DNA of 64,000 nucleotides from Halorussus gelatinilyticus (GTDB taxonomy: Archaea; Halobacteriota; Halobacteria; Halobacteriales; Haladaptataceae): assembly GCF_023238445.1 (NCBI RefSeq), contig NZ_CP096658.1, positions 372,001 through 436,000 of the forward strand, in the 5' to 3' direction. The position numbers and the translations under genes were made by a program. Below the pieces are notes generated by a model. That model worked only from the letters and a program-made list of their open reading frames with translations, was not told the DNA's origin and made no database searches. Position 1 is the stretch's first letter, and the number at the start of each line of letters is the position of its first letter. Below, in pieces: positions 17,902 to 26,130 of this stretch.

Positions 17902-18177
17902 TCAGCGCAGGTCGTTCGTCAGTTCCGCCATGTTCACGTCGTCGTCGGTGATGCCGCCCTCCTCGTGACTGGTGAACCGGATTTCGACTTCCTCGTACCG
18001 GATTACGATGGTCGGGTGGTGGAACTCCTCTTCGGCGAGTTCGCCGACTTCGCTGGCGAACGCGACGCCTTCGAGGTAGTCGTCGAACTCGTACACGCGG
18101 ACGATTTCGTCGTCGATGCGCTCCCAGCCGTCCGGAAGTTGGGTCTCGATTTCGTCGTCGGAGAGTAAGTCTGCCAT
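17902..18177 (-). CDS. Pterin-4a-carbinolamine dehydratase
   Basis: This 91-residue protein shows the dehydratase signature: WERIDDEIVRVYEFDDYLEGVAF, then EEEFHHPTIVIRYEEVEIRFTSHEEGGITDDD, with the two catalytic histidines (HHP) and the third His in SHEEGG. It dehydrates 4a-hydroxytetrahydrobiopterin or acts on a related pterin. The length is typical. The ATG at 18177 (MADLLSDDEIE) fits the family start. No aromatic amino acid hydroxylase is nearby, so the partner pathway is not shown. Confidence 0.88.
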   Translation of the reverse strand: MADLLSDDEIETQLPDGWERIDDEIVRVYEFDDYLEGVAFASEVGELAEEEFHHPTIVIRYEEVEIRFTSHEEGGITDDDVNMAELTNDLR

Positions 18178-18277
18178 GGGTGGACGTTCGGCGTTCTCGG
18201 TCAAAAAGGTCGGTGGCGCTTTCCGCCGCACGTCCGAGGAGAGAGCAGTGATTCCGTTCGGGAACTACCGAGACGCT

Positions 18278-19669
18278 TCAGTCGTCGTCGGCGATCATCG
18301 CCTGCACGTCGTCGGGCATCTGGTCGGCCATCTCGTCGGGAATCTCGCCCCCGAACTGCTCGCGGACGAACTCGGGCGGTCGGGCCGACCCCTCGTCGGC
18401 CGAATCGCCGCGCTCGCCGAAGTCCGGGTCGAACAACTGGAGCGCCGTGTTGATGGTACCCCAGTCGTCGTCAGCGGCGGCGTCGCGCAAGCTCTCGGTC
18501 GGCGGCGCGAGAAGTTGCGAGACCAGCGCGTCGGCCATCGCGGCGACGACCTCCCGCTGGTCCTCCGAGAGGTCGCCGCGGGCGTCGAGTTTCGAGAAGG
18601 CTTCCGAGAGTTCGCGTTCCTTGACGCGCTCGGCGCTCTCGTACATCGCCGAGATGACCTCGTCGGCGCGCTTGCGCTTGTAGCTCTCCAGCAGGTGTTC
18701 GAACTCCCGGTCTATCATCGCCTCGACGGACTCGGCGGCGGCCCGGCGGCGGCGCTCGGTCGCGTCGGTCACCGACTCCAACGCCGCCATGCCGTGGAGG
18801 GTCACGCCGTCCACCGCGTCCGCGGCCGGCGACACGTCCCGCGGTTGGGCGATGTCCACGACGACGCTCTCGCCCGCGTCGCGGAGGTCCTCGGCGTCGA
18901 GGACGTGGCCCTCGCTTCCGGTCGCCGTGACGACCACGTCGGCCGCGTCGAGTGCCGAGGAGAGACCGTCGAGACCGACCGCTAACGCCTCGTCGTGAGC
19001 GACCGTCTCCGTGAGTTCGGTCGCGCTGTCGAGCGATCGATTGGCGACGTAGAGCGTCTCGACGTCGGCGTCGGCGAGCGCGTGGGCCGCGATGGTGCCC
19101 ATCTCGCCCGCGCCGACGACCAGCGCCGTCGCCTCGGTCAGGGCGGTCCGCTCGTCCAGCAGGTTCACCGCCGCGCTCCCGACCGAGACGGCACCGTCGT
19201 TGATGGCGGTCTCGGTCCGGGCGCGCTCGCCGACGTGGATGGCCTTCGTCACGGCGTCGTCGAGCATCGGGCCGAGCGCGCCGACCTCGCGGGCCGACTC
19301 GTAGGCGTCCCGGACCTGTCCGAGAATCTGGTCCTCGCCGAGGACGAGCGATTCGAGTCCGGCCGCCACGCGCAGGAGGTGGCGGAGGCTCTCCTCGTGG
19401 CCCATCTCGACGACCGAGTGGCCGCCCACGTCGGGCGCGAAGTCGGCCAGCACGGCCCGGCCGGTCGCCGCGCCGTCGGTGACGACGTAGGTCTCGAACC
19501 GGTTGCACGTCTGGAGCGCGAACGCCTCGCGGACGCCCGGCACGTCGGCGAGTCGGCCCAAGACGGTCTCCGCGTCGGCGTGGCAGGCCGCCTCCACGTC
19601 GTCGAGGCTCGCGCGGTCGTGGCTGATTCGGATGCCCGAGACGACGCCGGTCGCCGCGCTCACGGGCAC
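18278..19669 (-). CDS. hemA: Glutamyl-tRNA reductase
   Basis: This 463-residue enzyme reduces glutamyl-tRNA to glutamate-1-semialdehyde, the first committed step of haem and other tetrapyrroles. It has the catalytic Cys in AFALQTCNRFETYVV, the segment GLESLVLGEDQILGQVRDAY, the NADPH-binding VVGAGEMGTIAAHAL, and the C-terminal dimerisation helices. The C-terminal tail after about residue 400 is acidic and Gly/Asp-rich. The start is a GTG at 19669; a second GTG two codons on is equally possible. The usual siroheme gene is not adjacent. The 241 bases upstream (19670-19910) hold no supported gene. Confidence 0.94.
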   Translation of the reverse strand: MPVSAATGVVSGIRISHDRASLDDVEAACHADAETVLGRLADVPGVREAFALQTCNRFETYVVTDGAATGRAVLADFAPDVGGHSVVEMGHEESLRHLLRVAAGLESLVLGEDQILGQVRDAYESAREVGALGPMLDDAVTKAIHVGERARTETAINDGAVSVGSAAVNLLDERTALTEATALVVGAGEMGTIAAHALADADVETLYVANRSLDSATELTETVAHDEALAVGLDGLSSALDAADVVVTATGSEGHVLDAEDLRDAGESVVVDIAQPRDVSPAADAVDGVTLHGMAALESVTDATERRRRAAAESVEAMIDREFEHLLESYKRKRADEVISAMYESAERVKERELSEAFSKLDARGDLSEDQREVVAAMADALVSQLLAPPTESLRDAAADDDWGTINTALQLFDPDFGERGDSADEGSARPPEFVREQFGGEIPDEMADQMPDDVQAMIADDD

Positions 19670-19910
19670 CGCCTCCCGAGTCGTGTGTCAGAGAGAGAGA
19701 TTCCGAGAGTCATGTTGTCACCCTTGAGTTCCCGCCGTACCGCTCTTATCCGGGTCTTGGTACGGCCGGTACGTAAACCCTTCCAAACGCGACACGTCCT
19801 CGCACGTGGGTGCGCGTGCGCCGCCACCGGCGTTCGTTCTCGGGTCGCCCGCGCGACACGCCGCGAGGGTCGTCTCCGGGTCGCTCGCGCGGGACCGCTC
19901 GCCCACCGTC

Positions 19911-20312
19911 TCACCCCTCCACGCCGGTCACTTCGAAGCCGAGGCCCCGAATCCCGTCGAGGATGGCCTCGTGGTCGGCACTGGCCTCGTAGTAGAACAC
20001 CACGTCGAAGGTGCCCTCGCGGAGGAGTTGCTGGCACTCCCAGACGAACGACTCGTCGTCCAGCGTCAGGCCCTGATGCTGGTTCGACGCGAAGTCGGTG
20101 TCGTCGGTGCCCGAGTAGACGAACGTGTCGGTCGGCTCGTGGCCCGCGTGTTCGGCGATGACGTCGCCCACGTCTACCGTCGCCTGATGCATCTCCGTCT
20201 CTTCGTCGCCCCCGAAGTCGGTGTGGACGACGGCCCCGTTGAGTTCGATGTCGCCGGGTTCGAGCAACTGCTTGGTCCGCCGGTAGAGGTCCTCGTCGAG
20301 TGCGTCTTCCAT
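19911..20312 (-). CDS. Conserved haloarchaeal protein of unknown function (possibly DUF5778)
   Basis: This 133-residue acidic protein has no membrane segment or signal peptide. It starts MEDALDEDLYRRTKQLLEPG and contains a Thr/Asp-rich middle with DTFVYSGTDDTDFASNQHQG. The end, TFDVVFYYEASADHEAILDGIRGLGFEVTGVEG, resembles a strand-helix-strand of a small regulatory domain. Sequence style suggests a haloarchaea-specific family, possibly DUF5778, but this could not be confirmed. No partner is evident from the context. Confidence 0.6.
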   Translation of the reverse strand: MEDALDEDLYRRTKQLLEPGDIELNGAVVHTDFGGDEETEMHQATVDVGDVIAEHAGHEPTDTFVYSGTDDTDFASNQHQGLTLDDESFVWECQQLLREGTFDVVFYYEASADHEAILDGIRGLGFEVTGVEG

Positions 20313-20475
20313 ACTCGAAGCAAGCCGACCGCCCGTTAAACGCGCTACGGTTCCGCCGAGAACGTCCGATTTCGGTGCATCGCTCGGCGGCGGTCGAGTC
20401 GGCGTATCGCGCTATCGCGCCAGCGCTGCCGCTATCGGGTCGGCGTCAATAAAAGCTCAGTTCTACGCGATACGA

Positions 20476-20670
20476 TTACAGGCGTTCGAGGTTCTTCGCG
20501 CGCGGACCCTTGTCCGCCTGCTCTATCTCGAACTCGACTTCCTGCCCCTCTTCGAGGTCGGGACCGCCGATGTCTTCCATGTGGAAGAACACGTCTTCGT
20601 CCTCGTCCTCAGTGTCGATGAAACCGTAACCGCCAGTGTCGTTGAAGAAATCAACCGTACCTTTCGCCAT
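20476..20670 (-). CDS. Cold-shock domain protein (CspA type)
   Basis: This 64-residue protein is a single cold-shock domain. It has the RNP1-like [32 protein letters not shown] and the closing [23 protein letters not shown]. It binds single-stranded nucleic acids and works as an RNA chaperone. The ATG at 20668-20670 gives the usual length. It is divergent from the cis-prenyltransferase gene starting at 20800, so the 129 bases between them carry both promoters. Confidence 0.93.
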
Positions 20671-20799
20671 TGCGTCTGTCCAATGGCGTTCCACGCTTAA
20701 AAAGGTATGCACCGCACCGAACCTGGTCCAGCGAGACGGTCTCGCACGAACCGTGGTCAAAAGGCTAATTGCTCTCGGCAGTGTCGATGCCACTAACGG

Positions 20800-21735
20800 A
20801 TGCTACAGTGGGCACAGCGGCGAGTTCAGGCAGCCTACGAGCGACTCCTCAGACGGGAAATCTCGGGCGCACCGACGCACGTCGCGGTCATTCAGGACGG
20901 GAATCGACGCTACGCCAGCAAACAGGGCGGCGACGCCCCCGACGGCCACCGCGCGGGCGCCCAGACGACCGAGCAGGTGTTACACTGGTGTCAGGAGATG
21001 GGAGTCGAGGAGCTGACGCTGTACACCTTCTCGACCGAGAACTTCGAGCGTCCCGACCACGAAAACGAGGCGCTGTTCGACCTGTTGGAGCGGAAACTGT
21101 ACGAGTTCGGCGACGACGACCGCGTCCACGACGGCGAAGTCTGCATTCGGGTCATCGGCGACCGGGACGCGCTTCCCGAGCGCGTCCGAGAAGCCATCGA
21201 CTACGCCGAGCGCCGGACCGAACACTACGACTCGTTCACCCTCAACGTCGCGCTGGCGTACGGCGGGCGGAACGAACTCCTCAACGCGGCCCGCGACGTG
21301 GCCAGCGCCGTCGAGGCGGGCGAACTCGACCCCGAGGACATCGACGTGTCGGCCATCGAGGACCGTATCTACGACTGCCCGGTCCGGGACGTGGACCTCA
21401 TCATCCGGACCGGCGGCGACGAGCGCACCTCGAACTTCCTGCCGTGGCACGCCAACGGCAACGAGGCCGCGGTGTTCTTCTGCACGCCCTACTGGCCCGA
21501 GTTCTCCAAAATCGACTTCCTGCGGGGTATCCGGACCTACGAGTCCCGCGAGGAGTCGTGGCGACGCGCGAAGGCCAACCGCGCGCTGGCGCTGGTCCGA
21601 GAACTGGGCGGCGTGGAACTCGAAGAAGCCCGGAGCGTCATCGACCGCTTCCGGGGGAACCTGCCGGAGGAGTCGAGCGTCGAGGAGTTGGGAATCGAGG
21701 AGTTGGACGTGGACGGCGAGTCGTCGGTGGAGTAG
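20800..21735 (+). CDS. uppS: Cis-prenyltransferase (UppS family) with catalytic N-terminal motif
   Basis: This 311-residue enzyme makes long cis-polyprenyl diphosphates for lipid-linked glycan carriers. The catalytic motif is intact: [17 protein letters not shown] (Asp33-Gly-Asn-Arg-Arg37), followed by [15 protein letters not shown] and the [13 protein letters not shown] strand. The C-terminal part, normally RxxxRxSNFLxWQ...AELYF and ending in an RxG motif, is degraded to [20 protein letters not shown]. It is extended by about 60 acidic residues without RxG. A facing gene 13 bases away has the opposite pattern, suggesting a heteromeric enzyme. Confidence 0.9.
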
Positions 21736-21748
21736 CGGGAAGCCCCGC

Positions 21749-22411
21749 CTACCGCCCGAACCGCCGCTGTCGATTCTTGTAGTCCAGCAACGCCCGGAGG
21801 TACTCCCGCTTCCGGAAGTCCCGCCAGTTCACGTCGGTGAAGTACAGTTCCGAGTACACCGACTGCCAGATCATGAAGTCCGAGAGGCGCTCCGCGCCGG
21901 TCTTCAACACGAGGTCGGGGTTCTCGGGGAACACCAGATGCTCCTCGACTTCGGTCTCGTCCACCTGCTCGGGGCTGAGTTCGCCGTCCTGCACGTCCGC
22001 GGCTATCTTCTGGACCGCGCCCGCGAACTCGTGTTTACCGCCGAGACCGATGGAGACCTGAATCGGTGCGTCGGCGCGCTGGGTGTCATCCGGCCCGCGG
22101 ACCGCCAACCGGCACGGGGTAGACACGTCTTCCAGTTCGCGCCGCAGGGTCGGGGCCGCCTCGGGGTCGAGGACGCTGACGTAGACGGTCACGCGCTCCG
22201 CGCCGTACTCGAAGGCCCACTCGAAGAACGCCTCCAGCGTCGCGTACGCGCCCTGTTCCAGCAGGTCGCGCTCGGTGATGATGACCGCGATGTGGTCGGG
22301 CGTGTCGGCGTCGTGCCTGCGGAGGCGGGCGGCGAGATAGCGGTCGTAGACTCCCACGCCCGAGGATTCGACGGCCACCGTCCTAAACGTCACGGACGAC
22401 GACTCGTTCAC
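21749..22411 (-). CDS. Cis-prenyltransferase paralogue lacking the catalytic DGNRR motif
   Basis: This 220-residue UppS-family protein has lost the catalytic signature: the site reads HIAVIITERDLLEQGAYATL where DGNRR is expected. Its C-terminal half is canonical, with LKTGAERLSDFMIWQSVYSELYFTDVNW and a terminal RRFGR that supplies an R-x-G motif (residues 217-219). In eukaryotic DHDDS/NgBR enzymes a non-catalytic subunit lends its RxG to the active site of the partner. The same division of labour is inferred here with the gene at 20800. It is convergent with that gene. Confidence 0.85.
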   Translation of the reverse strand: MNESSSVTFRTVAVESSGVGVYDRYLAARLRRHDADTPDHIAVIITERDLLEQGAYATLEAFFEWAFEYGAERVTVYVSVLDPEAAPTLRRELEDVSTPCRLAVRGPDDTQRADAPIQVSIGLGGKHEFAGAVQKIAADVQDGELSPEQVDETEVEEHLVFPENPDLVLKTGAERLSDFMIWQSVYSELYFTDVNWRDFRKREYLRALLDYKNRQRRFGR

Positions 22412-22798
22412 TCCGCGGTGTCATTTCGCGCCGGATTCTCCGGAGGAGTCCAGAAGTGGAACCGTCGAAGTCGGAGAGAACCCGACGAAACCTGATGGAG
22501 ACGAGAAGCTAGCTTCAGGCTTGAACGATGGAGTTGACCGCACCGCACAACACCGCGACGGCGGGCCGCGCCCGCACGCGCCGGAACGAAAATGGGCGGT
22601 TCCGCGGCGAAGCCGAGGGTCGAATCAGTCCGCACCGCGGTAAAATTCCGTCGTGTCCGAGCCGACGGAAAGCCGAACTCGATTCCCGAAACCCGCCGCT
22701 GTCGGGCGGTCGTCGGACGTTCGTCTGACGATTTCCGTTCCGAGGACGCCCGCCGCTTCGGGAGGATTAAGTGGGCGTCGGCGGAACGGGGGGATAAC
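22412..22798. other. Intergenic region, 387 bases
   Basis: This gap separates two divergently read genes and should hold both promoters. It contains the perfect 12-base palindrome GAAGCTAGCTTC (about 22506-22517) and several GC-rich imperfect repeats. No reading frame has family similarity, and no tRNA-like fold was found. An AT-containing GAGGATTAAG near 22765 may belong to the promoter of the DUF92 gene. Confidence 0.4.
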
Positions 22799-24109
22799 GT
22801 GACGACCAGAGTTCGGCGTGCGGCGGCATACGCCGTCGTCTCGACGCTGGCGCTCGCGGCACCCACGCTAGAGTGGGCGACCGCAGCGGTGTTCGGTGCA
22901 GTCGCCGTGGGCGCGCTCTCGGTCACCGACGGACCGGTGTTCGAGTGGTTCGCCCGCCCCGCGGACCGACAGGAGGGCCGTCTCCACGGCCTCGCGGCGT
23001 TCGGCTTCGCCGCGACCGGCATCGCGCTCCTCTCGTGGTTCGCGGGCTTGCCGGACCACGTTCTCGTCGCCAGCGTCCTCGTCGTCGGCTACGGCAACCT
23101 CGCCCAGCAGTTAGCGTGGCGCTTCGACGCCGAGCCGATTCTCCGAACCGGCGCGTTCGTCGCCGGGGCAATCGTCGCGGCCGTGGCGGGACAGGCCGTC
23201 GCGCTCGGCGTCGTCGGTATCGAGGTCACGCCCGTCCTGCCCGAAATCGTCTTTCTGGCGTCCAGCGGTGCCCTTCTGGCGGGACTGTTGCGCTCGGTGC
23301 TGTTCGCCCGCGACGACCCGCTGGTCATGCTCTCGGTGGCGTTCCTGCTGTGGCTGTTCGCCGACCTCGCGGTGATGGTCACCGTCGAGGGAATCGCGGT
23401 CGCGCTCGCGGTCACCGCGCTGTTCGGCTACGTCTCGTGGGCGCTCGACGCCGCCTCGATTCCGGGGATGATGACCGGCGCGCTGCTGGCGATGCTCACC
23501 ATCGTCCTCGGCGGCTACGGCTGGTTCGCGGTCCTCATCGCCTTCTTCGGCATCGGGAGCCTCTCGACGAAGTTCCGCTACGAGGAGAAGGAGGCCCGCG
23601 GCGTCGCCGAGGAGAACGAGGGCGCGCGCGGGTCGGGCAATGTCCTCGGGAACGCGGCGGTCGCGCTCGTCGCGGTCCTCGCCTACGCCGCGCAGGACAA
23701 GTTCGCGGTCGGCGGTGAGGTGTTCCTGTTCGCGTTCGCCAGTTCCATCGCCACCGCGATGAGCGACACCCTCTCCTCGGAGATCGGCGGCGTGTTCGAC
23801 GACCCGCGGCTCATCACCACGCTCGAACGCGTCGAACCGGGCACCGACGGCGCGGTGACGTGGCAGGGCGAACTCGCGGGCGCGGCGGGCGCGGCCGTCG
23901 TCGCGGCCATCGCGGCGGCCCTCTTCGGGAACGTCGGGGTGACCGGCGGTGCGGTGGTGGCCGTCGCGGGCGTCAGCGGCATGACGATGGACAGCCTGCT
24001 CGGCGCGACCCTCGAAGGCGACCGACTGGGCAATCAGGGCGTCAACTTCCTCGCCACGCTGACCGGCGCGCTCGTCGGCGCGGGTCTCGCGGTGGTCGTC
24101 CTGCCGTGA
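22799..24109 (+). CDS. DUF92 family polytopic membrane protein
   Basis: This 436-residue protein has roughly 11-12 hydrophobic segments. Its C-terminal half matches the DUF92 family: DAASIPGMMTGALLAMLTIVLGGYGWF, GIGSLSTKFRYEEKEARGVAEENEGARGSGNVLGN, FASSIATAMSDTLSSEIGG and the final GATLEGDRLGNQGVNFLATLTGAL. Some plant and bacterial relatives take part in isoprenoid or phytyl-phosphate metabolism, which would fit the neighbouring cis-prenyltransferases; this is inference. The start is a GTG at 22799. Its stop overlaps the start of the acetyltransferase (GTGA). Confidence 0.82.
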   Translation: MTTRVRRAAAYAVVSTLALAAPTLEWATAAVFGAVAVGALSVTDGPVFEWFARPADRQEGRLHGLAAFGFAATGIALLSWFAGLPDHVLVASVLVVGYGNLAQQLAWRFDAEPILRTGAFVAGAIVAAVAGQAVALGVVGIEVTPVLPEIVFLASSGALLAGLLRSVLFARDDPLVMLSVAFLLWLFADLAVMVTVEGIAVALAVTALFGYVSWALDAASIPGMMTGALLAMLTIVLGGYGWFAVLIAFFGIGSLSTKFRYEEKEARGVAEENEGARGSGNVLGNAAVALVAVLAYAAQDKFAVGGEVFLFAFASSIATAMSDTLSSEIGGVFDDPRLITTLERVEPGTDGAVTWQGELAGAAGAAVVAAIAAALFGNVGVTGGAVVAVAGVSGMTMDSLLGATLEGDRLGNQGVNFLATLTGALVGAGLAVVVLP

Positions 24110-24528
24110 TTCGACTCGCTCGCCCCGCGGACCGTGCAACTCTGCGCGAGATTCAGACCTACCTCCGGGAGCCGAATCCCGCGCTACTGGCCTACGCCAT
24201 CGACGGCCCGCCGGTCGTCCTCGTCTCCGCGACGCCCGATGGCGACCTCGCGGGCTACCTCGTCGCGCTTCACGACGGGGAGACGAGTTACGTCGCGGAA
24301 ATCGCCGTCGCGCCCGCGTACCGCCGGGAGGGGCGCGCTCGCCGCCTGCTGGCGGGGGCGTTCGATTTGCTCCGCGAGCGAGACTGCGCGACGATTCGGC
24401 TCTCGGTCCGTCCCGACAACGACGCCGCGAGACGCCTCTACGAGTCGATGGGGTTCGAGGAAGTCGGCCGAGAGGAGGGCTACTACGACGACGGGAGCGC
24501 GGCGATTACGATGCAGCGAGACCTCTAA
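24106..24528 (+). CDS. GNAT family N-acetyltransferase
   Basis: This 140-residue GNAT protein starts at a GTG overlapping the upstream stop codon. Its acetyl-CoA-binding motif A is clear (YVAEIAVAPAYRREGRARRLLAGAFDLLRERD), followed by IRLSVRPDNDAARRLYESMGFEEVGREEGYYDDG, as in RimI-like enzymes. The substrate cannot be deduced; N-terminal protein acetylation is a common role for this shape. Translational coupling to the DUF92 gene suggests they are made together. Confidence 0.85.
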   Translation: MIRLARPADRATLREIQTYLREPNPALLAYAIDGPPVVLVSATPDGDLAGYLVALHDGETSYVAEIAVAPAYRREGRARRLLAGAFDLLRERDCATIRLSVRPDNDAARRLYESMGFEEVGREEGYYDDGSAAITMQRDL

Positions 24529-24603
24529 GATAGCGATTTCTCCGGTTAAAATCGCCCGTTCACTAACCGCGGAGTTCTGACCGCCGCGGTGACACCGCGG
24601 TGG

Positions 24604-26130
24604 TCAGAACTGGTCGGCGGTCCGGACCCGCACGTTCGCGGGTCGCTTGACGAACTCCCCGCAGTCGCGCCCGACGACCTGTCCGACCCCGCGCTGGGCC
24701 GACACGTCGAGGAGGCGCTGGTCTACGGTCCCGTCCAACACGACCGCGAAGGGGGCCTCGTCGGCCGACTCCACGGCGTCGAAGGCGTTCTCGCCGGCGA
24801 CCTCGGCGAGGACGCCGAACGACTCGTCCAACAGGCGCGCGGTCCCGGTCTCGCCGTCCACGACCGCCTCGACGTGGCCCTGCACGGTCGCTGGTTCTCT
24901 GGGCGTCTCGGCCGCGGCGTCCGGGGCCGACGCGGCCTCGGCCGTCCCTTCCGTGGCGGTTCCGGCGTCCGCGACCGCCTCGGCGTCGGCGGGAGCGCCG
25001 GCGGTTTCGGCGTCCGCACCGGCCAGCGACTCGGCGTCGTCTATCGTCTCGGCTTGGACCTCCGCCTCGATGCCGTCGAAGAGGTCCGACTCGCCGGCGT
25101 CAGCGGCGTCGCTCGCCGGGTCCGCGTCGGCCGACGCAGACTCGGCGGCGGTCGGTCGGTCGGTGTCGTCCGGCGTCGCGGGACCCTCCGGTCCGGTCTC
25201 GTCGCTCTCGGGTGCGGGCCGGGCGCTCCCGTCGGTCGCCGCGGGTCCGGCCTCGCTCGCGTCGGCGGACGTCGCGTCGGCGGTGGCTTCCTCGGCCGAC
25301 CCGTCCGCTTCGTCGGCCTCCTCGCCGACCATCGACTCGTCGAAGGGTCGCTTGCTCCGGAGCGCCGACATGACCTCGTGGCGCGCCAAATCCTCGACGG
25401 ACTGATTCGCGGGCGCGAACGCCACGTAGTCGATGTCGCCGACCTGTGCGAGTTCCTTCCGGATGAGGTCGCCCCCGCGGTCGCCGTCGAGGAACGCGGT
25501 GACGGTCCGGTTCTGGGTGAGGTCGGCCACCGCGTCGGGAACGTTGGTGCCCTCGACCGCGACGGCGTTCTTGACGCCGTAGCGGAGGAGATTCAGCACG
25601 TCTGCCCGGCCCTCGACCACGATGATGGCGTCGCTGTCCTCGACGCGCGGGCCGGCGGGCAGGCCCTCGTACTCCGCGATGTCTTCGACGCGGACGCTCT
25701 GGCGGACCTCTTCGAGGATTTCCCGAGAGGTCATCACGTCCTCGTCGAACGAGTCGGTGAGCAGTTCCTTCGCGCGCTCGACTACCTTCCGGCGCTTGGC
25801 GGCGCGCACGTCCTCGATGCCCGCGGTGGCGACGGTGGCCCGACAGGGGCCGACCCGACTGATGGTTTCGAGCGCCGCCGCGAGGATGGAGGTCTCTACC
25901 TTGTCGAGACTCGACGCGATGGTGATGGTCCCGAACGACTGTCCGTTCTCGCTGTCGATGTCCACGTCGATGCGGCCGAGCTTCGAAGACTGCTGGAGGT
26001 CCCGGAGGTCTAAGTCGTCGCCGAGCAGGCCTTCGGTCTGGCCGAAGACCGCGCCGACGACGTCACTCCGCTCTACCACCCCGTCGGCAGTGATGTCCGC
26101 GTGAATGACGTATTTGGCTGTGTCGTCCAT
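24604..26130 (-). CDS. dnaG: DNA primase DnaG (archaeal type)
   Basis: This 508-residue protein begins with the archaeal DnaG domain ([31 protein letters not shown]). It has a TOPRIM domain at about residues 168-245, with Glu173 ([12 protein letters not shown]) and Asp215/Asp217 (FLDGDRGG) as metal ligands. About 150 residues of Ala/Asp/Glu/Ser/Thr low-complexity linker follow (about residues 268-420), before a conserved C-terminal segment ([21 protein letters not shown]). Archaeal DnaG acts in replication and also associates with the exosome. The linker is longer than usual and is common only in haloarchaea. Confidence 0.93.

Follow-up and report, generated by a model that had tools for sequence, protein, structure and literature searches.

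We identified two adjacent, facing cis-prenyltransferase (cPT) genes in the window, the whole 64,000-nucleotide stretch of the Halorussus gelatinilyticus genome analysed here. Gene A (20800-21735, forward strand) encodes a catalytic-type subunit of 311 aa, and gene B (21749-22357, reverse strand) a predicted non-catalytic, RxG-donating subunit of 202 aa. The two stop codons are separated by 13 bp (21736-21748), and the convergent orientation means that the genes do not form an operon. Both products score above the curated cut-off of PF01255 (27 bits), A with 230.5 bits over profile positions 1-216 of 219 and B with 96.5 bits over positions 109-219 of 219 only (the C-terminal half). The first-pass annotation of this DNA described the pair and its orientation correctly, but it over-extended B to a start at 22411. 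The open frame of B does reach that position; the GTG at 22357, equivalent to residue 19, is most likely the start, judging from several orthologs whose open frames begin at the equivalent GTG. A and B are the only two PF01255 genes of the 3.67 Mb single-contig genome, among whose PF01255 matches no third, complete UppS was found. That either gene is a pseudogene, or resembles cPTs by chance, was ruled out, as both show conservation under strong constraint across 57 genomes. The surrounding block (hemA, a small ORF, a cold-shock gene, A and B, a DUF92 gene, a GNAT acetyltransferase gene and dnaG; 17902-26130) is largely conserved in relatives. Two genomes have A elsewhere, and in these B still lies beside the cold-shock gene.

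Gene A encodes the catalytic motif DGNRR, as had been annotated (20896-20910, forward strand; residues 33-37, with D33 corresponding to D26 of the E. coli enzyme and D34 of DHDDS). DGN is present in 56 of 57 haloarchaeal A orthologs, the remaining copy being cut by a contig end, and in all 63 A proteins of other Halobacteriota (119/120 overall, with one truncated). The FSTENFxR segment is also kept, as is the substrate-binding RTGG..R.S (Arg203, Arg209 and Ser211), and these two and DGNRR are nearly invariant in the 57 haloarchaeal orthologs. In fact, every catalytic residue that we checked is retained. The earlier claim that A has lost both the WQ...AELYF element and RxG holds for RxG only. 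In place of FLLWQxAYAELYF, A has a conserved 15-residue stretch (21436-21480, forward strand; column counts from 57 orthologs) in which Trp216 and Glu222 (W207 and E213 of E. coli) are invariant (57/57), Gln is replaced by His and the Glu is followed by a two-residue insertion. A terminal RxG is lacking in all haloarchaeal A (0/57), and none of the 63 A proteins from other Halobacteriota has one in register. Past the point where RxG is expected, A continues in a C-terminal extension (21565-21732, forward strand) modelled as two helices (residues 237-269 and 275-283) followed by a disordered end. This extension is missing from several methanogen families and thus is not required for the split of motifs between the two genes.

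Gene B has the reverse pattern, and the three motifs reported for it earlier are all read in the sequence. ITERD (22265-22279, reverse strand) stands at the place of the catalytic MDGNR, with T, E, R and D conserved in 52-56 of the 57 haloarchaeal B proteins. DGN was found in none of the B proteins (0/57 haloarchaeal, 0/44 from other Halobacteriota, 0/101 overall). The loss is wider than the replacement of DGNRR originally described: lacking are the catalytic Asp, the active-site Arg residues and the GHR and FSxENxxR segments. The canonical C-terminal element, IWQSVYSELYF (21839-21871, reverse strand), is nearly invariant in the 57 proteins, and the closing RRFGR (21752-21766, reverse strand) contains the RxG motif, with R216, R217 and G219 invariant in 57/57. 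A terminal RxG is present in all 57 haloarchaeal B and in 43 of 44 from other Halobacteriota, the last having KxG (100/101 RxG overall). The B orthologs of two families (f10, genomes G036 and G051; f26, genomes G067 and G075) are very divergent, with weak profile scores, and keep the terminal RxG.

We sampled 59 haloarchaeal genomes (the source genome and 58 relatives), of which 57 encode cPTs. All 57 carry a single A ortholog and a single B ortholog, and one genome has one extra PF01255 gene. The two genomes without cPTs are 62% and 66% complete. A and B are linked and convergent in the source genome and in 48 of 56 relatives, and unlinked in eight; every linked pair among the relatives is convergent (48/48). 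Across the wider Halobacteriota, at least two PF01255 genes were counted in 108 of 110 genomes; the remaining two, from the same genus, have neither A nor B. A profile of haloarchaeal B recovered an ortholog from each of the 44 Halobacteriota genomes that were probed. No genome with A alone or B alone was found among the Halobacteriota genomes examined. An independent distribution of the two genes, which had been named as evidence against the heteromer, was not seen in these genomes. Sequence comparison places the complementarity of their motifs far beyond chance. As side observations, a third PF01255 match, divergent and scoring 103 bits, lies inside a 622-aa open frame of one haloarchaeal relative (G030:C1:478925-479599, L096). 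The two Halobacteriota genomes of one genus that lack both A and B are G065 and G073, each about 91% complete, and neither has a detectable cPT.

Two other archaeal phyla mostly encode the motifs in one protein. We found one full-length cPT in 40/40 Methanobacteriota genomes and a single full-length cPT in 35 of the 40 Thermoplasmatota genomes with a match, and the sampled proteins of both phyla have DGN as well as RxG. On the sequences sampled, two complementary genes is the state of the Halobacteriota, and one complete gene that of Methanobacteriota and Thermoplasmatota. These single enzymes, like the homodimeric UppS of E. coli, share the fold and the PF01255 domain with A and B and unite in one chain the motifs that are split over the pair; unlike them, neither A nor B has both DGN and RxG. 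The tree has one clade of A proteins and one of B proteins, both of which span haloarchaea and methanogens. The evolutionary distances of A and B are correlated, with a partial r of 0.56 against hemA, 0.67 against dnaG and 0.22 against DUF92; the correlation carries little weight, as it is weak against the last of these three controls.

The methanogen branches of the two clades include an enzyme that has been studied. Genome G167 contains a gene whose product shares 99% identity with MM_0014 of Methanosarcina mazei in the PDB, and on this basis the genome is taken to be M. mazei. It encodes three cPTs: MM_0014, one A (341 bits) with DGNRR, FLPWQANGSE and no RxG, and one B (353 bits) without DGN that ends in RRYGK. 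According to PMC8131916, which cites Emi et al. 2019 for this, MM_0618 and MM_1083 assemble into a heteromeric cPT with C45-50 products, probably the enzyme that supplies the glycosyl carrier lipid; the paper also describes MM_0014 as a third Methanosarcina cPT making short products. The A and B orthologs of G167 are its only cPTs besides MM_0014 and must therefore be MM_0618 and MM_1083; gene order and spacing on the chromosome suggest that A is MM_0618 and B is MM_1083. Given the single A and B clades, the haloarchaeal pair is orthologous to the enzyme reported as heteromeric. The two systems are alike in having orthologous A-type and B-type genes with the same motif split, in the same phylum, in what for M. 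mazei is a carrier-lipid synthase. They differ in that the M. mazei genes are about 550 kb apart whereas haloarchaeal A and B are mostly convergent neighbours, that M. mazei A reads WQANGSECATYF where haloarchaeal A has a different 12-residue version, and that MM_0014 is absent from the H. gelatinilyticus genome. Relatives of MM_0014 (ending in ITLGG) also occur alongside an A/B pair outside the Methanosarcina genus group, at L158 (G076) and L167 (G059).

We conclude that A and B very probably form one heteromeric cPT, in which A is the catalytic subunit and B donates RxG, and which probably serves synthesis of a glycan carrier lipid. This is the best reading given the invariable co-occurrence, the complementary motifs and the orthology to the M. 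mazei pair, and the same evidence supports the split heteromer that had been proposed for this locus. For H. gelatinilyticus itself we infer the physical assembly, the tail-swap geometry, the product and the role. A would bind the allylic primer and isopentenyl diphosphate and supply the Mg-binding Asp and the Arg residues, while B, whose active site no longer has its catalytic half, would pair with A via the usual cPT dimer face. The RRFGR tail of B could then thread into the active site of A, replacing the tail that A has lost. In human DHDDS/NgBR, the RxG tail of NgBR reaches across the dimer interface to build both of the substrate sites in DHDDS (PMC7573591). The same geometry in the archaeal pair would explain an A protein without a tail and a B protein that has tail and scaffold but no catalytic residues. 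The product would be a polyprenyl diphosphate, precursor of a dolichol-phosphate-type carrier for N-glycosylation and other surface glycans, with the role in N-glycosylation suggested by the known dolichol-phosphate pathway of Haloferax N-glycosylation (PMC3871713).

AlphaFold models of both proteins are cPT-like (pLDDT 85.5 for A and 86.2 for B), with low-confidence tails at residues 300-311 of A and 199-201 of B. The top PDB fold match of the A model is human DHDDS, perhaps helped by the C-terminal helical extension. Fold matches of the B model are moderate (TM about 0.6-0.7), the best among the matches listed being UppS-type enzymes and DHDDS; NgBR was not singled out by this comparison.

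Some features of A would suit an enzyme that works without B. All of the catalytic residues checked are kept, the model has a long C-terminal helix of its own, and human DHDDS alone has some activity, although about 400-fold less than the complex (PMC7573591). A might then act on its own as a homodimer whose C-terminus is modified, and B might be a degenerate paralog with a different function, for example in regulation or membrane anchoring. We regard this as improbable. RxG is missing from A in every genome while the RRxG of B is invariant, so that selection on B is strongest at precisely the active-site tail. Among the genomes examined A was never seen without B, and the orthologous M. mazei pair is reported to be heteromeric (PMC8131916). 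Other organisms have more than one cPT with different products, and the short products of MM_0014 (PMC8131916) are an example; A and B could be imagined as separate homodimeric enzymes that differ, for instance, in chain length. However, the 101 B proteins examined lack the DGN, GHR and FSxENxxR residues, which makes catalysis by B alone very unlikely, and we give this last alternative hardly any credence.

A further question, compatible with the heteromeric enzyme, is whether eukaryotic DHDDS/NgBR is directly related to the pair, by descent from it or by shared origin. The B profile aligns over the whole of NgBR (E about 1e-7 in the PDB; hhalign probability 96%), both B and NgBR have ITE at the DGN position, the FLPWH of A resembles NgBR, and a clade of A with DHDDS is not rejected (AU test, p 0.45). 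However, when the B profile is split, single-copy archaeal UppS outscores NgBR in both halves (134 vs 19 bits for the C half; 29 vs 11.5 for the N half), and in the tree the only B branches that NgBR groups with are the two longest, with weak support and a long-branch warning, a position that is probably a long-branch artefact. A specific kinship of B and NgBR, which the full-length match had suggested, was dropped on the split-profile scores, and direct relatedness of the two pairs seems to us unlikely. On the sequence comparisons, the analogy to DHDDS/NgBR is functional, with B closest to single-copy archaeal UppS. The parallel drawn in the first-pass annotation stands for the motif split. 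No specific sequence relatedness of B to NgBR is shown, and the tree neither favours nor rejects a grouping of A with DHDDS. Shared with human DHDDS/NgBR (Rer2/Nus1 in yeast) are a catalytic subunit without RxG, a non-catalytic subunit with a C-terminal RxG, and a helical C-terminal extension on the catalytic subunit. Unlike NgBR, B has no N-terminal membrane region, and products in archaea have shorter chains (C45-50 for M. mazei).

When a duplication inside the phylum was compared with separate origins of A and B, the tree favoured neither (AU test, p 0.39). One history to which we give about an even chance is that the split arose once, near the base of the Halobacteriota and independently of DHDDS/NgBR, and was kept in nearly every lineage, with Methanobacteriota and Thermoplasmatota keeping the complete enzyme. 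A heteromeric cPT is already established in M. mazei, so the haloarchaeal pair is a new example of a known enzyme type, and the heteromer model put forward for this locus had already been published for the methanogen. The interest of the pair lies in the phylum-wide distribution of the split and its possibly independent origin. With a phylum-wide split beside single-enzyme phyla, one can examine why a homodimeric enzyme should turn into an obligate heterodimer, and whether the cPT was split separately in archaea and in eukaryotes; an independent origin is plausible. The carrier-lipid step of archaeal N-glycosylation appears to be little studied in haloarchaea, and the pair offers two well-defined genes that can be tested, in a group some of whose members are genetically tractable. 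With the catalytic site and the RxG tail on different genes, each can be deleted or mutated alone.

A gene for a DUF92/TIGR00297 membrane protein (22799-24109, forward strand) adjoins B on the opposite strand, and a homolog was present in 47 of the haloarchaeal loci fetched. VTE6 proteins, the plant relatives of the DUF92 protein, act on prenyl phosphates. By analogy, a role of the DUF92 protein in polyprenyl-phosphate metabolism is possible.
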